Assembly: GCA_947456185.1 (NCBI GenBank) | Contig: CANGPW010000018.1 | Span: 1-40,347, forward strand | Origin: Bacteroidota bacterium | Lineage (GTDB): Bacteria > Bacteroidota > Bacteroidia > UKL13-3 | Reading direction: 5' to 3' | DNA: 40,347 nucleotides | In this document: positions 8,330 to 25,151 of the stretch, one piece after another | Numbering within the stretch: the first letter of the stretch is position 1 | Layout: the number at the start of each line of letters is the position of its first letter | Notes under the pieces: generated by a model | What the model was told of the DNA's origin: nothing | The model's database searches: none | Seen by the model: only the letters and a program-made list of their open reading frames with translations | Position numbers and translations under genes: made by a program

Positions 8330-10552
8330 TTAAAACTTCCAAGTTAATCCCACAAATATATTGCGAGTAGCAGCAGGAAAAAACAAAGGTACAGTTGTAG
8401 CTTTTCCTTGACCATCAAGGTAGTTGGTATAACTTTGAACATTTCCTGAAGGAGTATAAAGCTGATCCGTTAAATTATTTACTTGAACACTTATGCTTGG
8501 TTCTCCATATTTAACCCATTGTTTTAAATTGATTCCAAACTTTAAATCCATCAAATTGTAATCGGCAATACTTACATTTTTATCTTCACTATTGTCTAAA
8601 TATTGCATGCTTACAAAACGGTAATTAAGTTCGGCAAAAAACCAATTGCAAGGAATTAACCTAATTCCTTGATTAATAATCACGGAAGGTGATAGTGTCG
8701 CAGCTGCATTTTTCTTAGTAATTACAGTGTCTGCATAAGTATTTGGATCAAAATAATGAAGGTTGATGCTGTTTATGGTGTTTTGGCTAAATGCAGAGCT
8801 CTGTGTTAACCATATCATTTTATGTAGCTTCCAAATTACGTCTATTTCTATTCCTTTGCGCACACTTGCACCCACGTTGGTATTGATGGCAACACCATAA
8901 GTATTTGAACTTCCGGTTGATGCAATTTGATTTTCAAAATCCATGTAAAACAAATTTGCATTGATGGCTAATTTTTGATTGTTAAAACTTGCGCCAAACT
9001 CATAATCATTAACCGTTTCGTGTTGAATATCGTTTTGCTTAATATTGCTGTAAGGATGTTCATCTTTAAAATAATCAACCCTGGCTGGTTCGCGGTTACT
9101 GCGGCCAAACATGGCATAAACATTGGTGCTTTTATTAATTTGGTGCTTTAAACCAAATCGATAATTTACAAAAGTCCAGTTCATGTTTTCTACCAATAAA
9201 TTATCATTGTTTAAACCATAAATAGTTCTGTATTCCATTATTTGTGGCGTGTAATTAAAACTTACATTTCTAACTTGAATATCTCCAAAAGCTACTGTTT
9301 TGGTATTAAATGAATAGTTTAGTTTTACGTTTCCGCTTATTTCATTTTTATTACCTGTATTGAAAAAAGCATTTTGCCCAGGTATAAACCTAGGGTTGTA
9401 TCTGTCAATAGATTGAACTTCTAAAAAATGTTCTCCAGTAAATGAATTGGCGTGCATATTTGCCATCAAATCCCACTTGCCAGTTTTGAATTGATAGTTT
9501 AAAAATGCACCCACAAAATATTGATTCAATCGATAGCTTGTCATGGCTTGATATCCGCTATCGTTGTTATGAATTGGCAAATTCAAATATTCGTTTGCAA
9601 AACCTCCAAAATACTGAAATTTGGGAGCTTGCCCTCTTACAAAATAAACCGATGAAGTAACATTGCTTTTGCTATTTATTTGATAAGAGTATTGTAATTG
9701 GTAAAACGATTGTTTAAACGCATCGCTTTCACCATTTACTAATGGATTAAAGGTTCTGTTTGAATTTAAGGTATTCGCATCAATTCCATTATATGCCAGT
9801 TTGTTTTCTGCATATCCGCCAAAAATATTTAATTTTAAAACTGCTTTTTTCCAAAAATAACCGGCACTGAACAGGTAACTTGTAATTTTAGCTCCTGAAT
9901 TAATTCTATAACCGTTTGTTTGTAAATTACTTAATCTACCATAAAAAGCCAGTTTGTTTTTAATCATTCCACTTTGATATTCTAATGTAGCTCGGCTTGA
10001 ACCAAAAGAACCTAAACCAAAATTCATCGTTGCAGATTGTTTGGGAGCCAAGTTTTTAGTTAAAACATTTACACTTCCACCAAAGCTAGCCACACCATTA
10101 GTTGAAGTTCCAACTCCTCTTTGAATTTGAATACTTTCGGAACTACTTGCCAAATCGGCAAAATTATTAAAGTAAACGCCCATGTTTTCAGGATCATTTA
10201 CAGGTATTCCATTTACAGTAGTGTTAACGCGGGTTTGATCCATTCCCCTTAACCTAAAAAAGCTGTAACCAATTCCCATTCCGTTATCGCTATAACCATT
10301 GATGGATGGTGTGTAATTAATTAAAGAGGGGATATCGGCTCCATAATACTTTAGCGCTATTTGTTTGCTATCGAGCGTAGTTTGAGTAATGGGTAAATTT
10401 ACATTTGCTTTAATTCCTTTTACTACAAACTCTTGCATGTTTTTTGAGTTGAGCGAATCGGTTTGTGCAAAGCTAATTTGGCCTAGAGCCAATAAACTAG
10501 ATAAAATAATTATTTTTTTTAACATTTTTGTTGTGTTGAATAAGGTAAACAA
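8330..10552 (-). CDS. TonB-dependent outer membrane receptor, probably thiamin-related
   Basis: Signal peptide, plug domain (LPITQTTLDSKQIALKYYGADIPSLINYTPSI...RVNTTVNGIPVNDPE) and beta-barrel C-terminus ending in WKF; TPP riboswitch directly upstream. Likely start is ATG at 10525 (MLKKIIILSS). Confidence 0.92.
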   Translation of the reverse strand: MFTLFNTTKMLKKIIILSSLLALGQISFAQTDSLNSKNMQEFVVKGIKANVNLPITQTTLDSKQIALKYYGADIPSLINYTPSINGYSDNGMGIGYSFFRLRGMDQTRVNTTVNGIPVNDPENMGVYFNNFADLASSSESIQIQRGVGTSTNGVASFGGSVNVLTKNLAPKQSATMNFGLGSFGSSRATLEYQSGMIKNKLAFYGRLSNLQTNGYRINSGAKITSYLFSAGYFWKKAVLKLNIFGGYAENKLAYNGIDANTLNSNRTFNPLVNGESDAFKQSFYQLQYSYQINSKSNVTSSVYFVRGQAPKFQYFGGFANEYLNLPIHNNDSGYQAMTSYRLNQYFVGAFLNYQFKTGKWDLMANMHANSFTGEHFLEVQSIDRYNPRFIPGQNAFFNTGNKNEISGNVKLNYSFNTKTVAFGDIQVRNVSFNYTPQIMEYRTIYGLNNDNLLVENMNWTFVNYRFGLKHQINKSTNVYAMFGRSNREPARVDYFKDEHPYSNIKQNDIQHETVNDYEFGASFNNQKLAINANLFYMDFENQIASTGSSNTYGVAINTNVGASVRKGIEIDVIWKLHKMIWLTQSSAFSQNTINSINLHYFDPNTYADTVITKKNAAATLSPSVIINQGIRLIPCNWFFAELNYRFVSMQYLDNSEDKNVSIADYNLMDLKFGINLKQWVKYGEPSISVQVNNLTDQLYTPSGNVQSYTNYLDGQGKATTVPLFFPAATRNIFVGLTWKF

Positions 10553-10659
10553 AACCTATAACAGGGGCTGCTAAAGGCTAAAAAATTGTTTATCTAACTC
10601 TGAATGTAAAACCCAAAATGTGTTTGCGGCCAGCAAAATTATAAAAAACACATTGGTGG

Positions 10660-10738
10660 TCTATTTCCTTCGCAAGCATTACCTTGATCAGGTTCAGAGG
10701 GTGTAATCTCAGGCTGTTTTTGCAAACAACCACCCCTA
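10660..10738 (-). promoter_or_regulatory. TPP (thiamin pyrophosphate) riboswitch / THI box
   Basis: - strand GGGGTGgttg...cagcCTGAGATtacACCCtctGAACCTGATCaaggTAATgcttgcgaAGGAAata matches the conserved THI-box core. Confidence 0.96.
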
Positions 10739-10803
10739 AAGACAGTGCAATAATAGTAGTTAAGTTGATAGTTGACAGTTGATAATTGTCAGTAGCCTGT
10801 TTT

Positions 10804-14242: not shown

Positions 14243-14634
14243 TTTGAAGCAAAATAATTGAATATAAACTCAAAAACAAAACATATTGAATTTTAGGTTA
14301 ATTTAAAGACTAAAAAATAGCCTTAAGCATCGTTTTTATTTATAATTAACGCAAGTGGGACATTTTTGCCTTTTTATAGGTTTAATTTTCTGGTTTTAAT
14401 ATAAATTACTATTTGCTAAAACATTATATTTAAAATGAAATATAACATATAAGTAAAATGAAAAAATTGCTGTAGATATAAACCTACACAATAAAACAAC
14501 TATTCGGCTCGTTTATTGTTCAATAATAATATACAGCTTTCGAGTTTGTGCGTTTAAGTGTTAAGTAATGGTTTAAAAATTTGTCTGCGACTCTCCTATT
14601 TTTGCATAAATATAAATTTTTTAAAAAATAAATT

Positions 14635-17158: not shown

Positions 17159-18894
17159 TAAAAAAAATATACATATTATTACTGATTTCATTGTGGGTAA
17201 ATACTGCTGAGGCACAATATTGTTCCAAAATAAGGAGAATATGTAGAGATAATTTAAATAATACTATATTTTGGAGTATAAATTTGTCTGTTCCATGTGG
17301 TACATTTAAAGAATACAAATTATTTGGAAGAGACAAGCCTTCAAGTCCTTATATGTTAATTGCCTCAATTACAGATGAAAACACAACAGATTGGAGCCAT
17401 TTAAATGCAAATGTTCCAAGTAATAAAAATTGGGATTACTATATCGAAACGGTTTATAGCTGCTTAAGTATAGATCAATCGTGTTATTCAGACACACAAA
17501 ACGTAGCAGATTTTAGCTTGCCAAAAAGCAAAATAGCATATGTAACTATTGATATTGATTCTGAATTTCCTGTTATTGTTTGGGAAAAAAACAATTATCC
17601 AAGTTTTTGGTATGTTGATTTATTTAACGACAATCCAATAAAAACCAGCATAACTGACACATTTTATATAGATAAAATATCGAGCGGAGACCCAAAAGCA
17701 AGCCCAGTAAAATATGTAATAGCTGCTGTAGATAGCTGCACAAAAAGGTGGGATTATTTACCTGAAGATTTTCATTATACTATCAATTTAAAAGGCGCAA
17801 TAGATACTTGTAAAAATATTATAAATTTAAATTGGACAAAATATATTGGCTGGACTGATAGTATTAAATACTACTATATTTATAAAATGCTAAACAAATC
17901 AAATTATTATTTGATTGATAGCGTAAGTAATAGTACCACAAATTACTCAATAAAAACAACTATAAATGAAATAGTAGATTATTATGTATCGGCTGTAAAC
18001 AGTAAATATGTAAATTATAGAAGTAGTTCAAATAATATTTCTTTTATAACAAGCAACAGAAATTCAAATCAAAACTTAAAAATAAATTATATAACATTAG
18101 ATAATAATATAAATATAAATATTGGCTTCAATACATACTCTGATTTATCTGAAATAAATATATTAAAATCAACTGATGCAGTAAACTATTCACTATATAA
18201 AGTATTAAATAACACAACATCTCCAATAAACTTTATTGATTTAATAGAACAAGGAAACAGAAGGGTGTATTATTATTTGGTTTCTAAAAATAGTTGCGGG
18301 ATTTATACTGATACTACTGCTGTATCTACCAATATTTTATTAGAAAATATACAGGACAAGGGAGAAAGTAAATTATGGTGGAATAACTATTTCACGTGGA
18401 ACAACGGGGTTGAAAAGTATATAATATACAGAGAAACAAGGGTTAATGATATGACTACAAAGCCTTTTTCTCCAAAAGGCTTTACTGTAGATAGTAATTA
18501 TATTGATAATGTAGAGGCTGAAGATTTGTCTAAAGAAAAACTTTGTTATAAATTAGTTGCAATTGAAAATATAACAGGATTTACAAGTTCATCAAATTCC
18601 GTCTGCATATTTGGTGGCTTGGTTGTATATTTTCCAAATGGAGTAATTTCACGATCTAATTCAACCAGCTTTAAACCGGTTGGTGTATTTATAGATTATT
18701 CAAAATCAAAAATGAATATTTATAACAGATGGGGTTTGTTAGTAAAAGAAATTAATGATTTAAATATTGGGTGGGACTTGACTGATTTAAATGATAATTT
18801 TGCAGAAAGCGAAACATATATATATGAGGCTAATATTATTGGTTTAGACGGTAAAGAAGTTAACAAAAAGGGTACAGTTACAATAATTAGATAA
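17155..18894 (+). CDS. Secreted protein with FN3-like repeats and C-terminal T9SS type B sorting domain
   Basis: Signal peptide IKKIYILLLISLWVNTAEAQ; C-terminus MNIYNRWGLLVKEINDLNIGWDLTDLNDNFAESETYIYEANIIGLDGKEVNKKGTVTIIR; apparent TTG start overlapping the upstream TGA. Confidence 0.83.
   Translation: MIKKIYILLLISLWVNTAEAQYCSKIRRICRDNLNNTIFWSINLSVPCGTFKEYKLFGRDKPSSPYMLIASITDENTTDWSHLNANVPSNKNWDYYIETVYSCLSIDQSCYSDTQNVADFSLPKSKIAYVTIDIDSEFPVIVWEKNNYPSFWYVDLFNDNPIKTSITDTFYIDKISSGDPKASPVKYVIAAVDSCTKRWDYLPEDFHYTINLKGAIDTCKNIINLNWTKYIGWTDSIKYYYIYKMLNKSNYYLIDSVSNSTTNYSIKTTINEIVDYYVSAVNSKYVNYRSSSNNISFITSNRNSNQNLKINYITLDNNININIGFNTYSDLSEINILKSTDAVNYSLYKVLNNTTSPINFIDLIEQGNRRVYYYLVSKNSCGIYTDTTAVSTNILLENIQDKGESKLWWNNYFTWNNGVEKYIIYRETRVNDMTTKPFSPKGFTVDSNYIDNVEAEDLSKEKLCYKLVAIENITGFTSSSNSVCIFGGLVVYFPNGVISRSNSTSFKPVGVFIDYSKSKMNIYNRWGLLVKEINDLNIGWDLTDLNDNFAESETYIYEANIIGLDGKEVNKKGTVTIIR
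18388..18403 (+). promoter_or_regulatory. parS-like centromere site (inside a CDS)
   Basis: TATTTCACGTGGAACA: 15/16 match to TGTTTCACGTGGAACA, the complement of the B. subtilis-type parS TGTTCCACGTGAAACA. Confidence 0.7.
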
Positions 18895-19307: not shown

Positions 19308-19323
19308 CGTTTCACGTGGAACA
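19308..19323 (+). promoter_or_regulatory. parS-like centromere site (ybeY-mnmG junction)
   Basis: CGTTTCACGTGGAACA: 15/16 match to TGTTTCACGTGGAACA. Second such site within 1 kb. Confidence 0.75.
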
Positions 19324-19327
19324 AAAA

Positions 19328-21190
19328 ATGTTAGACAAATACGATATTATAGTTGTTGGTGCTGGTCATGCTGGATGTGAAGCTGCTGCTTCTGCAGCAA
19401 ATATGGGAAGCAAAGTATTGCTTATAACCATGGATATGAACAAGATAGCTCAAATGAGCTGTAATCCAGCCATGGGAGGTGTAGCTAAAGGCCAAATAGT
19501 AAGAGAAATAGACGCTTTGGGTGGTGGCTCAGGAATAGTTTCTGATAAATCAACTATTCAGTTCAGATTACTAAATAGATCGAAAGGGCCAGCCATGTAT
19601 AGTCCAAGAGCACAAATAGACAGAATGATGTTTTCACAATATTGGAGAGAAATGTTGGAAGAAAACAAAAATGTAGATTTTTGGCAAGACATGGTTTCGG
19701 GACTAATAATAGAAAAAGGCAGGTTGGCTGGGGTTAAGACAGGGATGGGTTTGAATATTTATTCAAAAGCAGTAGTTTTAACAAGTGGAACATTTTTAAA
19801 TGGTATAATACATATTGGTCAAAAACAATTTGGTGGTGGTAGAATTGGAGAAAAATCAGCAACGGGTATAACCGAACAATTAATATCATTGGGTTTTGAA
19901 AGTGGAAGAATGAAAACAGGAACTCCGCCAAGGGTAGATGGAAGAACGCTGAATTATGATCTAATGGAAAGACAAGAAGGAGATGATATTCCTGGTAAAT
20001 TTTCATTTACAAATACAATTGCTGTGGTTAATCAAAAACCTTGTTGGATAACATATACCAATGAAAAAGTTCACGAAATATTAAGAACCGGATTTAATGA
20101 TTCTCCAATGTATGCTGGAAGAATTAAAGGATTAGGACCAAGATATTGTCCTTCAATAGAAGATAAAATTAATAGATTTGCTGAAAGAGATAGACATCAA
20201 ATTTTTGTAGAGCCTGAAGGTTGGAATACCGTAGAAATATATGTAAATGGATTTTCAACTTCTTTACCTGATCATATACAATTAAAAGCAATGAAAATGA
20301 TTCCAGGTTTTGAAAAGGCTAAAATGTTTAGACCCGGATACGCTATAGAATATGATTATTTTCCTCCTACACAATTGAAGTTAACTTTAGAGACTCATTT
20401 AATAGAAAACTTATATTTTGCTGGACAAATAAATGGAACAACAGGATATGAAGAAGCAGCTTGCCAAGGTTTAATGGCAGGAATAAATGCACATAATAAA
20501 ATTAATGAAAAAGAAGATTTTATATTAAAAAGATCTGAAGCATATATTGGTGTATTAATTGATGATTTGGTAAATAAAGGTACCGATGAGCCTTATAGAA
20601 TGTTTACGTCTAGGGCTGAATATAGAATACTTTTAAGACAAGATAATGCTGATATTAGATTAACAAAATTGGGAAATAATATTGGTTTGGCTAGTTATCA
20701 AAGATTAGAAAATGTAAATGAAAAGATAAAAAACACCAATGAAATAATTCAATTTTTTAAGAAAACTTCGGTAACACCATATGAAATAAATCCATTGCTT
20801 AAAGAATATAATACAACTGATATTCCTCAGAATTATAAATTAATGCAAATTGTAACTAGACCTCAATTAGACATCAATATTTTAAATGATCATATTCCTT
20901 TAGTAAAAAACTTTCTAAAGGATTATTCAGAAGATAATTTATTACAAGCTGAAATATTGATGAAATATGAAGGTTATATAGAAAAAGAACAATTAATGGT
21001 GGATAAAATGAATAGGCTAGAAAACGTAATAATTTATGAAGATTTTGATTATTCAACCATTCATAATATTAGTAGTGAAGCTAGAGAAAAATTTACAAAA
21101 CAAAAACCAAGAACACTTGGACAAGCAGCAAGAATAAGTGGAATTTCACCTTCTGATATTTCAGTTTTATTGGTACATTTGGGGCGTTAA
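19328..21190 (+). CDS. mnmG: tRNA uridine-5-carboxymethylaminomethyl(34) synthesis enzyme MnmG
   Basis: MLDKYDIIVVGAGHAGCEAAASAANMGSKVLL; CNPAMGGVAKGQIVREIDALGG; GYEEAACQGLMAGINA. ATG at 19328 is preferred over the GTG at 19316, which lies in the parS-like motif. Confidence 0.98.
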   Translation: MLDKYDIIVVGAGHAGCEAAASAANMGSKVLLITMDMNKIAQMSCNPAMGGVAKGQIVREIDALGGGSGIVSDKSTIQFRLLNRSKGPAMYSPRAQIDRMMFSQYWREMLEENKNVDFWQDMVSGLIIEKGRLAGVKTGMGLNIYSKAVVLTSGTFLNGIIHIGQKQFGGGRIGEKSATGITEQLISLGFESGRMKTGTPPRVDGRTLNYDLMERQEGDDIPGKFSFTNTIAVVNQKPCWITYTNEKVHEILRTGFNDSPMYAGRIKGLGPRYCPSIEDKINRFAERDRHQIFVEPEGWNTVEIYVNGFSTSLPDHIQLKAMKMIPGFEKAKMFRPGYAIEYDYFPPTQLKLTLETHLIENLYFAGQINGTTGYEEAACQGLMAGINAHNKINEKEDFILKRSEAYIGVLIDDLVNKGTDEPYRMFTSRAEYRILLRQDNADIRLTKLGNNIGLASYQRLENVNEKIKNTNEIIQFFKKTSVTPYEINPLLKEYNTTDIPQNYKLMQIVTRPQLDINILNDHIPLVKNFLKDYSEDNLLQAEILMKYEGYIEKEQLMVDKMNRLENVIIYEDFDYSTIHNISSEAREKFTKQKPRTLGQAARISGISPSDISVLLVHLGR

Positions 21191-22117: not shown

Positions 22118-23716
22118 ATGAATAAGCAAATATTTTATATAATTACTTTATTATTAATTAGTTGTGCAAAAGTTGTAACGCCAACTGGTGGACCAAAAGA
22201 TATTGAGGGACCAAAAATTATATCAATATTCCCAGAGAATAAAAAAACTAACTTTTTAACTAAAAATCAAGATATTAGAATAAAATTTGATGAATTTATT
22301 CAACTAAAGGAAATTACAAAACAAATAGTAATGAGTCCTCCACAAAAGGAAAGTCCAGAATATTTAATCAATGGAAAAGAATTAATTATAAAATTTAAAG
22401 AGGAACTTCAAAAAAACACTACCTACACTTTAAATTTTGGAAATGCTATAGCTGATAACCATGAAGGAATAACAGCTAAAAATATACAATATACTTTTTC
22501 AACTGGCACATACATAGATACTAATTTTATTAGTGGTAAAATTAGAAATGCTTTTACAAATTTACCAGTAGAGGGATTAATAGTTTCATTGTATAAAAAA
22601 TCAACATTTACTGATACAACAATCTATCAATTTAATCCAACCTATTTTACTAAAACAAAAGAAGATGGTTCATTTTTGATTGAAAATATGCCAATAGAAA
22701 ATTATATTCTTTGTGCATATAAAAAAGAGGGAATAGATTTAAAATATGCTAAAAATGATAGTATTGCTATTTATAATTCGGTAATAAATACTGGAATTAT
22801 TAACTCTAAAATTCCTCTGTATTTAATTAAACCAAATGAACATAAACCTAATAAAATATTTGATACAATTAGTACACAATTAGGTGTTTATAAATTTGCA
22901 GTTTATAAACCTACAAATTTTAAAATAATAAATCCAAACAACGAAAAAGTATATTTTAAAACCTTAAAGAATACCAATGGAATAGATACAATTAAAGTAT
23001 TTGTAAATAATAAAACTGATTCATGTAAATTTAAAATAACAACAAACGATTCAAGCTTTTATAAAATAATTATTAGTAAAAAGAAGAGTAAAAAACCTGA
23101 ATTTATATTGGTTTCAAAAACAGAATTAAATCCTCTAGATACTATTTTTATTGAATCATCAGTTCCAATAAATTACATAAATAAAGACAGTATAATTATA
23201 AAAGAAGATACAAATATTTTAAACCCAACTTATTTTGAAATAGATACTAATAAAATGATAATTGCTATTTGTAATAATTGGAAAGAATCTACCAAATATA
23301 GTATTGAATTTAAAGATTCTTCATTAAAGGATATATTTGGAACTTTTAATAAAAAAACTTCCTATAGTTATGATATAAAAGCATTTAAAGAATATGGAAC
23401 TTTACTTTTAAATGTAGATTTAGAAAATGCAAAAAATAACTATATCATTCAATTATTAGATAATAATTCAAATACAGTTGTTAGATCATTTAACGTAAAT
23501 AAAAGTACTATTTTAAAAATGGAATATTTAAGTCCAATTTTAGGTAAAATAAAAATTATAGAAGATTTGAATAACAATGGTTTATGGGATAATGGAGATA
23601 TAGAATCTATGTTATATCCTGAACGTACATTTATATCAAATCAACTGATAAATGTTAGAGCATATTGGGATATAGAGCAATCTATTAACATTAACGATAT
23701 AATTAGTCAACAATAA
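22118..23716 (+). CDS. Lipoprotein with bacterial Ig-like (SbsA-type) domain
   Basis: Lipobox-like LLISCAKV; GGPKDIEGPKIISIFPENKKTNF...IRIKFDEFIQL...NTTYTLNFGNAIADNHEG is typical of Bacteroidota Ig-like lipoproteins. Confidence 0.85.
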   Translation: MNKQIFYIITLLLISCAKVVTPTGGPKDIEGPKIISIFPENKKTNFLTKNQDIRIKFDEFIQLKEITKQIVMSPPQKESPEYLINGKELIIKFKEELQKNTTYTLNFGNAIADNHEGITAKNIQYTFSTGTYIDTNFISGKIRNAFTNLPVEGLIVSLYKKSTFTDTTIYQFNPTYFTKTKEDGSFLIENMPIENYILCAYKKEGIDLKYAKNDSIAIYNSVINTGIINSKIPLYLIKPNEHKPNKIFDTISTQLGVYKFAVYKPTNFKIINPNNEKVYFKTLKNTNGIDTIKVFVNNKTDSCKFKITTNDSSFYKIIISKKKSKKPEFILVSKTELNPLDTIFIESSVPINYINKDSIIIKEDTNILNPTYFEIDTNKMIIAICNNWKESTKYSIEFKDSSLKDIFGTFNKKTSYSYDIKAFKEYGTLLLNVDLENAKNNYIIQLLDNNSNTVVRSFNVNKSTILKMEYLSPILGKIKIIEDLNNNGLWDNGDIESMLYPERTFISNQLINVRAYWDIEQSININDIISQQ

Positions 23717-24095
23717 TATAATAATAAAGCTATAAAATGTGGATTAATGTTTATATCAATTTTTGTAAAAAAAGACATCTTGATAAGTACTAATTTATAC
23801 TAAATAATTTAACAGATAACTAACATTTTAACTGCGACATTTTATAAACACAAATATGTGAATGTCGCAATTAACACACTGTTTATAAATATATAAACTA
23901 CTGATTATAAATAAAAAAGTAAAAAAGTAAATTGTTAAGAATATTGTATAAGGTAAATTCCTAAACAAAAATTAAAAGTTATTCTATCAATTAACACCTA
24001 TTATTATTATTACAAATTATATCTAAAGATAAACAATAATACATTAACGCTGTGGGTAAGCTCAGGGTTAGTATTTATAAATTGTATTCTTATGT
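23717..24095. other. Candidate replication origin (oriC-like intergenic region)
   Basis: AT-rich noncoding DNA with TGTGGATTA (23738-23746) and TGTGGGTAA (24051-24059), each 8/9 to TGTGGATAA; inverted TTATAAACA/TGTTTATAA (23842-23850, 23880-23888); 9-bp inverted repeat TGCGACATT/AATGTCGCA; TAA/TAG triplet runs. parS-like sites about 4.4-5.3 kb away. Confidence 0.45.
23833..23869. repeat. Inverted repeat in the intergenic region
   Basis: TGCGACATT...AATGTCGCA perfect 9-bp arms, with an inner CACA-AATA-TGTG hairpin. Confidence 0.8.
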
Positions 24096-24134
24096 TTGTA
24101 CTGGAATAGAAAGAAAAAATATTTAAAACCCAAA

Positions 24135-25151
24135 ATGAAACAAAAACTAGAAGAACTTCAACAAAAACTTCACGAGTATAAAATAAATTCAAGTGAAGAT
24201 TTGGAAAATTTTCGTTTAAAATATCTTTCTCGTAAAGGATTAATGAATGATTTGTTTGAAGAATTCAAACAAGTACCTAATGAAATGAAACGTGATATAG
24301 GTAAATTAATGAATGTTGTAAAAACCAGTGTTCAGGAAAAATTTGACGAAGCAACTGAAAAATTTAAATCTGATAAAATAGAAAATACAAATTATAATAT
24401 TGATTATACTTTACCAGCTGAAACCACTGAATTAGGATCTCGTCACCCCTTAAATATTATAGAAAATCAAATTGTCGCCATTTTTACAAAGTTAGGATTT
24501 ACAATAGCTGAAGGACCAGAAATAGAAAATGATTGGCATAATTTTTCAGCATTAAATTTTCCACCAAATCACCCTGCGCGAGATATGCAGGATACTTTTT
24601 TTATAGATGAAGAAATTGCATTACGCACACATACTTCAAGTGTACAAGTAAGATTAATGCAGCAAAAAAATCCGCCCTTACGGGCTATTATGCCTGGAAG
24701 AGTTTATAGAAACGAAGCCATTTCGGCAAGAGCAAATTGTTTTTTTCATCAAATAGAAGGAATTTATATTGACGAAAAAGTAAGTTTTGCAGACTTAAAA
24801 CAAACATTATATGCATTTGTAAAAGACATGTTTGGTGATGATGTAGAAGTAAGATTCCGACCAAGTTATTTTCCGTTTACAGAACCAAGTGCTGAAATGG
24901 ATATAAGCTGTCAAATTTGTAAAGGAAAAGGCTGTAATATTTGTAAATACAGCGGTTGGGTAGAAATATTGGGTTGTGGAATGATAGATCCAAACGTATT
25001 AGAAAATTGCGGAATTAACCCAGAAAAATATACCGGCTTTGCTTTTGGAATGGGAATAGAACGAATTACTATGCTTAAATACGATGTGAAGGATTTAAGA
25101 ACGTTTTTCATAAATGATTCAAGATTTTTGAAACAATTCAGTAATTTGTAA
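24135..25151 (+). CDS. pheS: Phenylalanine--tRNA ligase alpha subunit
   Basis: HPLNIIENQIVAIFTKLGF; RVYRNEAISARANCFFHQIEG; FAFGMGIERITMLKYDVKDLRTFF. ATG at 24135 is preferred. Confidence 0.97.
   Translation: MKQKLEELQQKLHEYKINSSEDLENFRLKYLSRKGLMNDLFEEFKQVPNEMKRDIGKLMNVVKTSVQEKFDEATEKFKSDKIENTNYNIDYTLPAETTELGSRHPLNIIENQIVAIFTKLGFTIAEGPEIENDWHNFSALNFPPNHPARDMQDTFFIDEEIALRTHTSSVQVRLMQQKNPPLRAIMPGRVYRNEAISARANCFFHQIEGIYIDEKVSFADLKQTLYAFVKDMFGDDVEVRFRPSYFPFTEPSAEMDISCQICKGKGCNICKYSGWVEILGCGMIDPNVLENCGINPEKYTGFAFGMGIERITMLKYDVKDLRTFFINDSRFLKQFSNL

Follow-up and report, generated by a model that had tools for sequence, protein, structure and literature searches.

Where does replication of the chromosome begin in an uncultured member of the Bacteroidota? 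Chromosomes are commonly drawn starting from dnaA, and to our knowledge few origins in this phylum have been defined. The question is raised by a short noncoding gap upstream of pheS in contig C18, a complete contig of 40,347 bp (hereafter, the window) from a 2.61-Mb assembly in 127 contigs, which an earlier note had read as a candidate chromosomal origin. We conclude that the gap is probably the chromosomal oriC and put the probability at roughly three in four on comparative sequence evidence. Clusters of DnaA-box-like sites, an element made of a box, a spacer, and triplets, and conserved parS sites support the earlier reading.

Extent and Content of the Gap

The gap lies within a run of + strand genes in the order two M16 peptidases, a T9SS-type protein, ybeY, mnmG, a methyltransferase, a Big5 lipoprotein, the gap itself, pheS, and leucyl aminopeptidase (Table 1). 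It had been delimited as 23717-24095 (380 bp). Its noncoding, AT-rich character (G+C of 0.20-0.21) was borne out, but its 3′ end shifts to 24134, because PheS has its in-frame ATG at 24135, the earlier TTG (24096) being no more than a mechanical ORF start. The mechanical GTG start of mnmG (19316) falls inside a parS site, so the true start of that gene is probably downstream. On rereading the sequence, we found every previously quoted motif in its place (TGTGGATTA at 23738, TGTGGGTAA at 24051, TTATAAACA at 23842, TGTTTATAA at 23880, and TGTTTATAT at 23748), although the inventory had overlooked the weak box CAATTAACA before the minus-strand triplets as well as the TGCGACATT palindrome.

Table 1. 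Coordinates of the candidate origin, its sequence elements, and its neighbors in the window
Feature	Position	Strand	Remarks
parS site TATTTCACGTGGAACA	18388..18403	+	14/16 to TGTTTCACGTGAAACA
parS site CGTTTCACGTGGAACA	19308..19323	+	14/16 to TGTTTCACGTGAAACA; directly before mnmG
mnmG, neighbor	19316..21190	+	TIGR00136
Big5 (Ig-like) protein gene, upstream neighbor	22118..23716	+	PF13205
Candidate oriC, AT-rich noncoding gap	23717..24134		418 bases, between Big5 lipoprotein gene and pheS
DnaA-box-like site TAATCCACA (8/9)	23738..23746	-	retained in closest relatives only
Palindrome TGCGACATT...AATGTCGCA, full TGCGACATTTTATAAACACAAATATGTGAATGTCGCA	23833..23869		encloses first TTATAAACA
Weak DnaA-box-like site TTATAAACA	23842..23850	+	block 23841-23850 invariant in nine genus sequences
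Weak DnaA-box-like site TTATAAACA	23880..23888	-	38 bp from mirror copy; in 8/9 genus sequences, the ninth having TTATTAACA
Weak DnaA-box-like site CAATTAACA, trio-proximal	23988..23996	+	ATTCACA in many relatives
Five DnaA-trio-like triplets, CTA TTA TTA TTA TTA on + strand	23998..24012	-	presumed start of unwinding
AT-rich stretch adjoining the trios, presumed unwinding region	24014..24050		predicted from sequence
DnaA-box-like site TTACCCACA (8/9)	24051..24059	-	TGTGGGT in several relatives too
pheS, downstream neighbor	24135..25151	+	TIGR00468

Box Clusters in the Gap and in Relatives

Single boxes carry no meaning here, since one-mismatch boxes are no more common than expected across the window (9 observed vs. 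13.9 expected). The exact box TTATCCACA has three scattered, unclustered sites genome-wide, and a one-mismatch scan of UKL13-3 also gave no cluster. We therefore adopted a degenerate DnaA-box matrix, with weights hand-set from general knowledge and untrained, and used the reversed matrix and shuffled sequences as controls. With this matrix, the gap holds 4 boxes, a count that no window elsewhere in contig C18 reached; shuffles give 0.85 (P about 0.01). The two 8/9 boxes that had been singled out near the ends of the gap are not retained as such beyond the closest relatives. As a separate observation, the three occurrences of TTATCCACA in the 2.61-Mb genome compare with 33 for the reversed string, which suggests that the perfect DnaA box may be avoided in this genome.

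The gap is 95.2% identical to its counterpart in the close relative L010, vs. 44-84% for other intergenic stretches of at least 60 bp; third codon positions in the same comparison, with genes aligned in frame, are 67-89% identical. Its sole intergenic equal is 10553-10803 (94.8%), which holds a TPP riboswitch (10648-10747 on the minus strand; Rfam RF00059, 67.5 bits) upstream of the minus-strand gene 8330-10552. Conservation of the entire gap in L011-L013, which are more distant, does not exceed that of another intergenic stretch, but fixed blocks persist. A divergent intergenic stretch at 14243-14634, where gene direction switches, was also considered as an origin; we rejected it because its identity to L010 (79%) is below that of the gap and because no other window of the contig matches the gap in box count.

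The order mnmG, methyltransferase, Big5, gap, pheS recurs in some 17 relatives, with a gap of about 380-480 bp. Across 19 such gaps, we counted 95 boxes vs. 16.3±3.7 in shuffled sequence and 30 with the reversed matrix, bearing in mind that counts across related species are not independent trials. At 14 of the 19 loci, the count of the gap is unmatched by any other window, and at one more it is matched by a single window of 428. A set of 30 pheS-upstream stretches, which overlaps the 19 gaps, gave 94 boxes (26.5±4.9 in shuffles; 46 reversed). Contig ends truncate some of these loci (L241, L256, L264, and L268), whose low counts are probably artefacts. Among the 19 gaps, those of L013, L022, L023, and L034 show little or no excess. 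In Persicitalea jodogahamensis (Cytophagales), 14 boxes are packed into 433 bp right after Big5, where the next gene is not pheS. When only exact or one-mismatch boxes are counted across 1.48 Mb of mnmG loci, the top two clusters by density both come directly after Big5, in Persicitalea (L033) and in L035. Of the complete UKL13-3 chromosome, 1.88 Mb was read, and the gap is the densest box cluster in that part. An oriC is recognized by a DnaA-box cluster in noncoding DNA and by syntenic conservation in relatives; the gap has such a cluster, weak in the window and strong in relatives, and it is conserved in synteny.

A Box, a Spacer, and Triplets at a Fixed Place

The string CTATTATTATTATTAC at 23998-24013 reads as trios on the minus strand. 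Block 24005-24015 is invariant in nine genus sequences, and the triplet runs align in relatives. Of the two trio runs proposed earlier, this one is thus conserved, whereas the other, at 23713-23726, persists together with the box at 23738 in the closest relatives only; its first bases belong to the upstream gene's stop codon, and across the genus it is unconserved. A run of five trios alone is not unusual at such AT richness (P about 0.12), and its length is not significant. The combination is rarer: a TNACA-type box word followed within 4 nt by at least five trios has P of 0.0015 per shuffled gap and occurs once in the window, and TTAACA followed by at least five trios is found three times in the 2.6-Mb genome, one of them in the gap.

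In full-length relatives, a fixed place upstream of pheS holds (A/T)TT(C/A)ACA or a close variant, followed after one to a few spacer nucleotides by triplets. The element reads CTATTATTATTATTA in the window and four other members of the genus, CTATTACTATTA in G008 and G015, CTATAATAACAATAACA in UKL13-3, and CATAATAATAACAACAAC in another genus. Its strict form (a box-like word, at most 4 nt, and at least three trios) is present in 9 of 30 gaps, where 1-3% is expected per shuffled gap. Conservation of boxes upstream of pheS, which the earlier note had named as a check, is therefore borne out: box clusters and the box-spacer-triplet element recur at the same place.

This arrangement resembles the basal unwinding system (BUS) of Bacillus subtilis-type oriC, in which a DnaA-box, a spacer, and trios with the consensus 3′-GAT-5′ follow one another (PMC8287927, PMC6669920). 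Like such origins, the gap has a box-like site, a short spacer, and CTA/TTA triplets adjoining AT-rich DNA, and it is a conserved noncoding region with further boxes; unlike them, it does not adjoin dnaA. The published search rule asks for a DnaA-box with at most two mismatches within 16 bp of at least three trios. The window satisfies it literally through TAATCCACA (23738) and the trios at 23719-23727, a pair that is unconserved across the genus, whereas its conserved trio-proximal box is weak, with four mismatches to TTATCCACA. Some relatives satisfy the rule at the conserved place (e.g., L023, with TTTTCCACC ATATTCACA TCT CTATTACTA), but many carry TAATAACAA-like triplets rather than strict trios. 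The gap probably belongs to the DnaA-dependent origins with a BUS-like element.

A Palindrome Within the Gap

The arms of the TGCGACATT palindrome are nearly invariant in the genus, and the arrangement is unique in the genome. The motif TGCGAC occurs two to three times in the gaps of 13 of 19 relatives; it is missing from those of UKL13-3 and Persicitalea, and the palindrome is thus lineage-specific. We tentatively entertain, with more doubt than confidence, an origin that uses few canonical boxes and relies mostly on weak sites of the TTATAAACA or TTAACA type, together with the TGCGACATT palindrome bound by a second origin protein. The palindrome is possibly new among origin elements.

parS Sites near mnmG

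The parS-like sites noticed earlier at 4.4-5.3 kb from the gap proved real and conserved in place among relatives. Within the genome, only those at 18388 and 19308 combine the full CACGTG core with no more than two mismatches; the other listed matches lack the core. Of 64 family genomes, 56 have sites of this type, frequently as a pair about 915 bp apart. Where parS and pheS were found on one contig, about 4.8-5 kb separates them in nearly every family genome. In most Bacteroidia loci examined, parS adjoins mnmG, commonly 10-80 bp ahead of the gene; in the 58% of the UKL13-3 chromosome that was read, the only three parS sites are all at the mnmG locus. The pair resembles the ParABS centromere parS TGTTTCACGTGAAACA in having two sites with the full core at a conserved place and spacing, and it differs from the consensus in that the window has these two sites only, each matching 14 of 16 positions. 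A parS assignment calls for a consensus match, few sites per genome, and a conserved place, all of which we found, and ParB binding is predicted.

GC Skew

In UKL13-3, cumulative skew has its maximum at about 1.79 Mb and its best-fit minimum at 0.04 Mb, and it is flat between 2.9 and 0.1 Mb. The gap, at 3.08 Mb, falls within the bootstrap interval of 2.90-0.10 Mb, and dnaA, at 0.98 Mb, falls outside it. The minimum is 190 kb from the gap, and a simple step model prefers it (delta about 9), so this chromosome may have been rearranged or may use a different origin. In contig G044 (341 kb), from the same genus as the window, skew declines up to about 130 kb, stays level as far as 170 kb, and then rises; the turning zone of 125-170 kb is 12-57 kb from the gap (181.7 kb), and dnaA lies at 125-127 kb. 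On the B1(2017) contig, skew falls overall over 1-780 kb, past dnaA (430 kb) and toward the gap near 1.12 Mb. Skew thus agrees only coarsely with an origin at the gap, at a resolution of about 50-200 kb. Because skew cannot place an origin to a few kilobases, it supports the oriC reading and does not prove it.

Competing Explanations

It is unlikely, though worth weighing, that the genus initiates at the dnaA promoter and that the pheS gap is a secondary DnaA-binding site or a relic origin. The dnaA gene is on contig C22 of the source genome and about 50 kb from the gap in the same-genus contig. Seven to eight box-like sites lie upstream of dnaA in the genus vs. four in the gap, the skew minimum at 125-130 kb of the same-genus contig coincides with dnaA, and within the window's genus alone skew cannot separate the two places. 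However, at least four sites upstream of dnaA are kept in every genome examined, even where a long distance separates dnaA from the skew minimum, as in UKL13-3, which would fit autoregulation. Moreover, a search of nine dnaA-upstream regions for the box-spacer-trio element returned only one poly-T-like string, and the conserved cluster of the deeper family is the gap. In the source genome (L008, on C22), the sites form a cluster about 350 bp upstream of dnaA, some at fixed offsets, with TTTTCAACA at about -94 and -284.

The position of the gap directly before pheS, and the ability of the TGCGACATT palindrome to form a hairpin, would also suit a conserved regulatory or leader region for pheS, or a terminator for the lipoprotein gene; the box-like words would then be a by-product of AT richness. 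We consider this very unlikely: the gap has no Rfam match, its folding barely beats shuffles (z of -1.2 and -1.0 on the two strands), boxes exceed both the shuffled and the reversed-matrix controls, and the 14-box Persicitalea cluster follows Big5 although pheS is not the next gene there. A gap that titrates DnaA or is linked to segregation, near an origin located elsewhere in the surrounding 200 kb, would accommodate the skew plateau of UKL13-3, which is flat at the locus and has its numerical minimum about 190 kb off. Still, no denser cluster exists in the contiguous 2.82-0.10 Mb of that chromosome, and the triplet element would be expected of an unwinding site rather than a titration site; we regard this explanation as highly improbable.

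A Possible Mechanism and a Proposed Origin Landmark

Computation yields the conservation of the gap, the clustering of its boxes, the order of box, spacer, and triplets, the parS sites, the synteny, and the separation from dnaA as direct observations. If the gap is oriC, DnaA would bind several mostly weak boxes within it and extend from the box at 23988-23996 onto the triplets at 23998-24012. The AT-rich DNA would then open toward pheS, allowing the helicase to load, after which ParB, bound to both parS sites at a distance of 4.4-5.3 kb, would segregate the new origins.

In gut bacteria including two Bacteroidetes, origins have been placed by a parS cluster and GC skew, with dnaA not always coincident (PMC10197239). 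The candidate described here is alike in having parS near the presumed origin and dnaA elsewhere; that study used Hi-C, coverage, and skew, whereas our evidence consists of sequence motifs and comparison. Because origins separate from dnaA had already been demonstrated there, the kind of origin is known. The literature that we searched describes none for UKL13-3, and open papers cover Bacteroidota origins little; by that literature, the place, the synteny rule, and the palindrome are new here.

In the family of the gap, dnaA can sit far from the skew turning zone. The landmark of parS at mnmG, then Big5, oriC, and pheS would place origins in draft genomes of uncultured relatives and would aid peak-to-trough growth estimates in them. 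The gap also offers a compact oriC that is amenable to testing and whose palindrome may be a new origin-binding one. In Crocinitomicaceae-type loci, the origin may lie on the other side of mnmG. There, the densest DnaA-box cluster is at about 5.0-5.6 kb of the locus (L039, L043, L044, L057, L073, and L080) or at 3.6-4.0 kb (L060); it sits in a gap about 4.5 kb upstream of mnmG, ahead of a long conserved gene and, at several of the loci, behind an rpiB-like gene.
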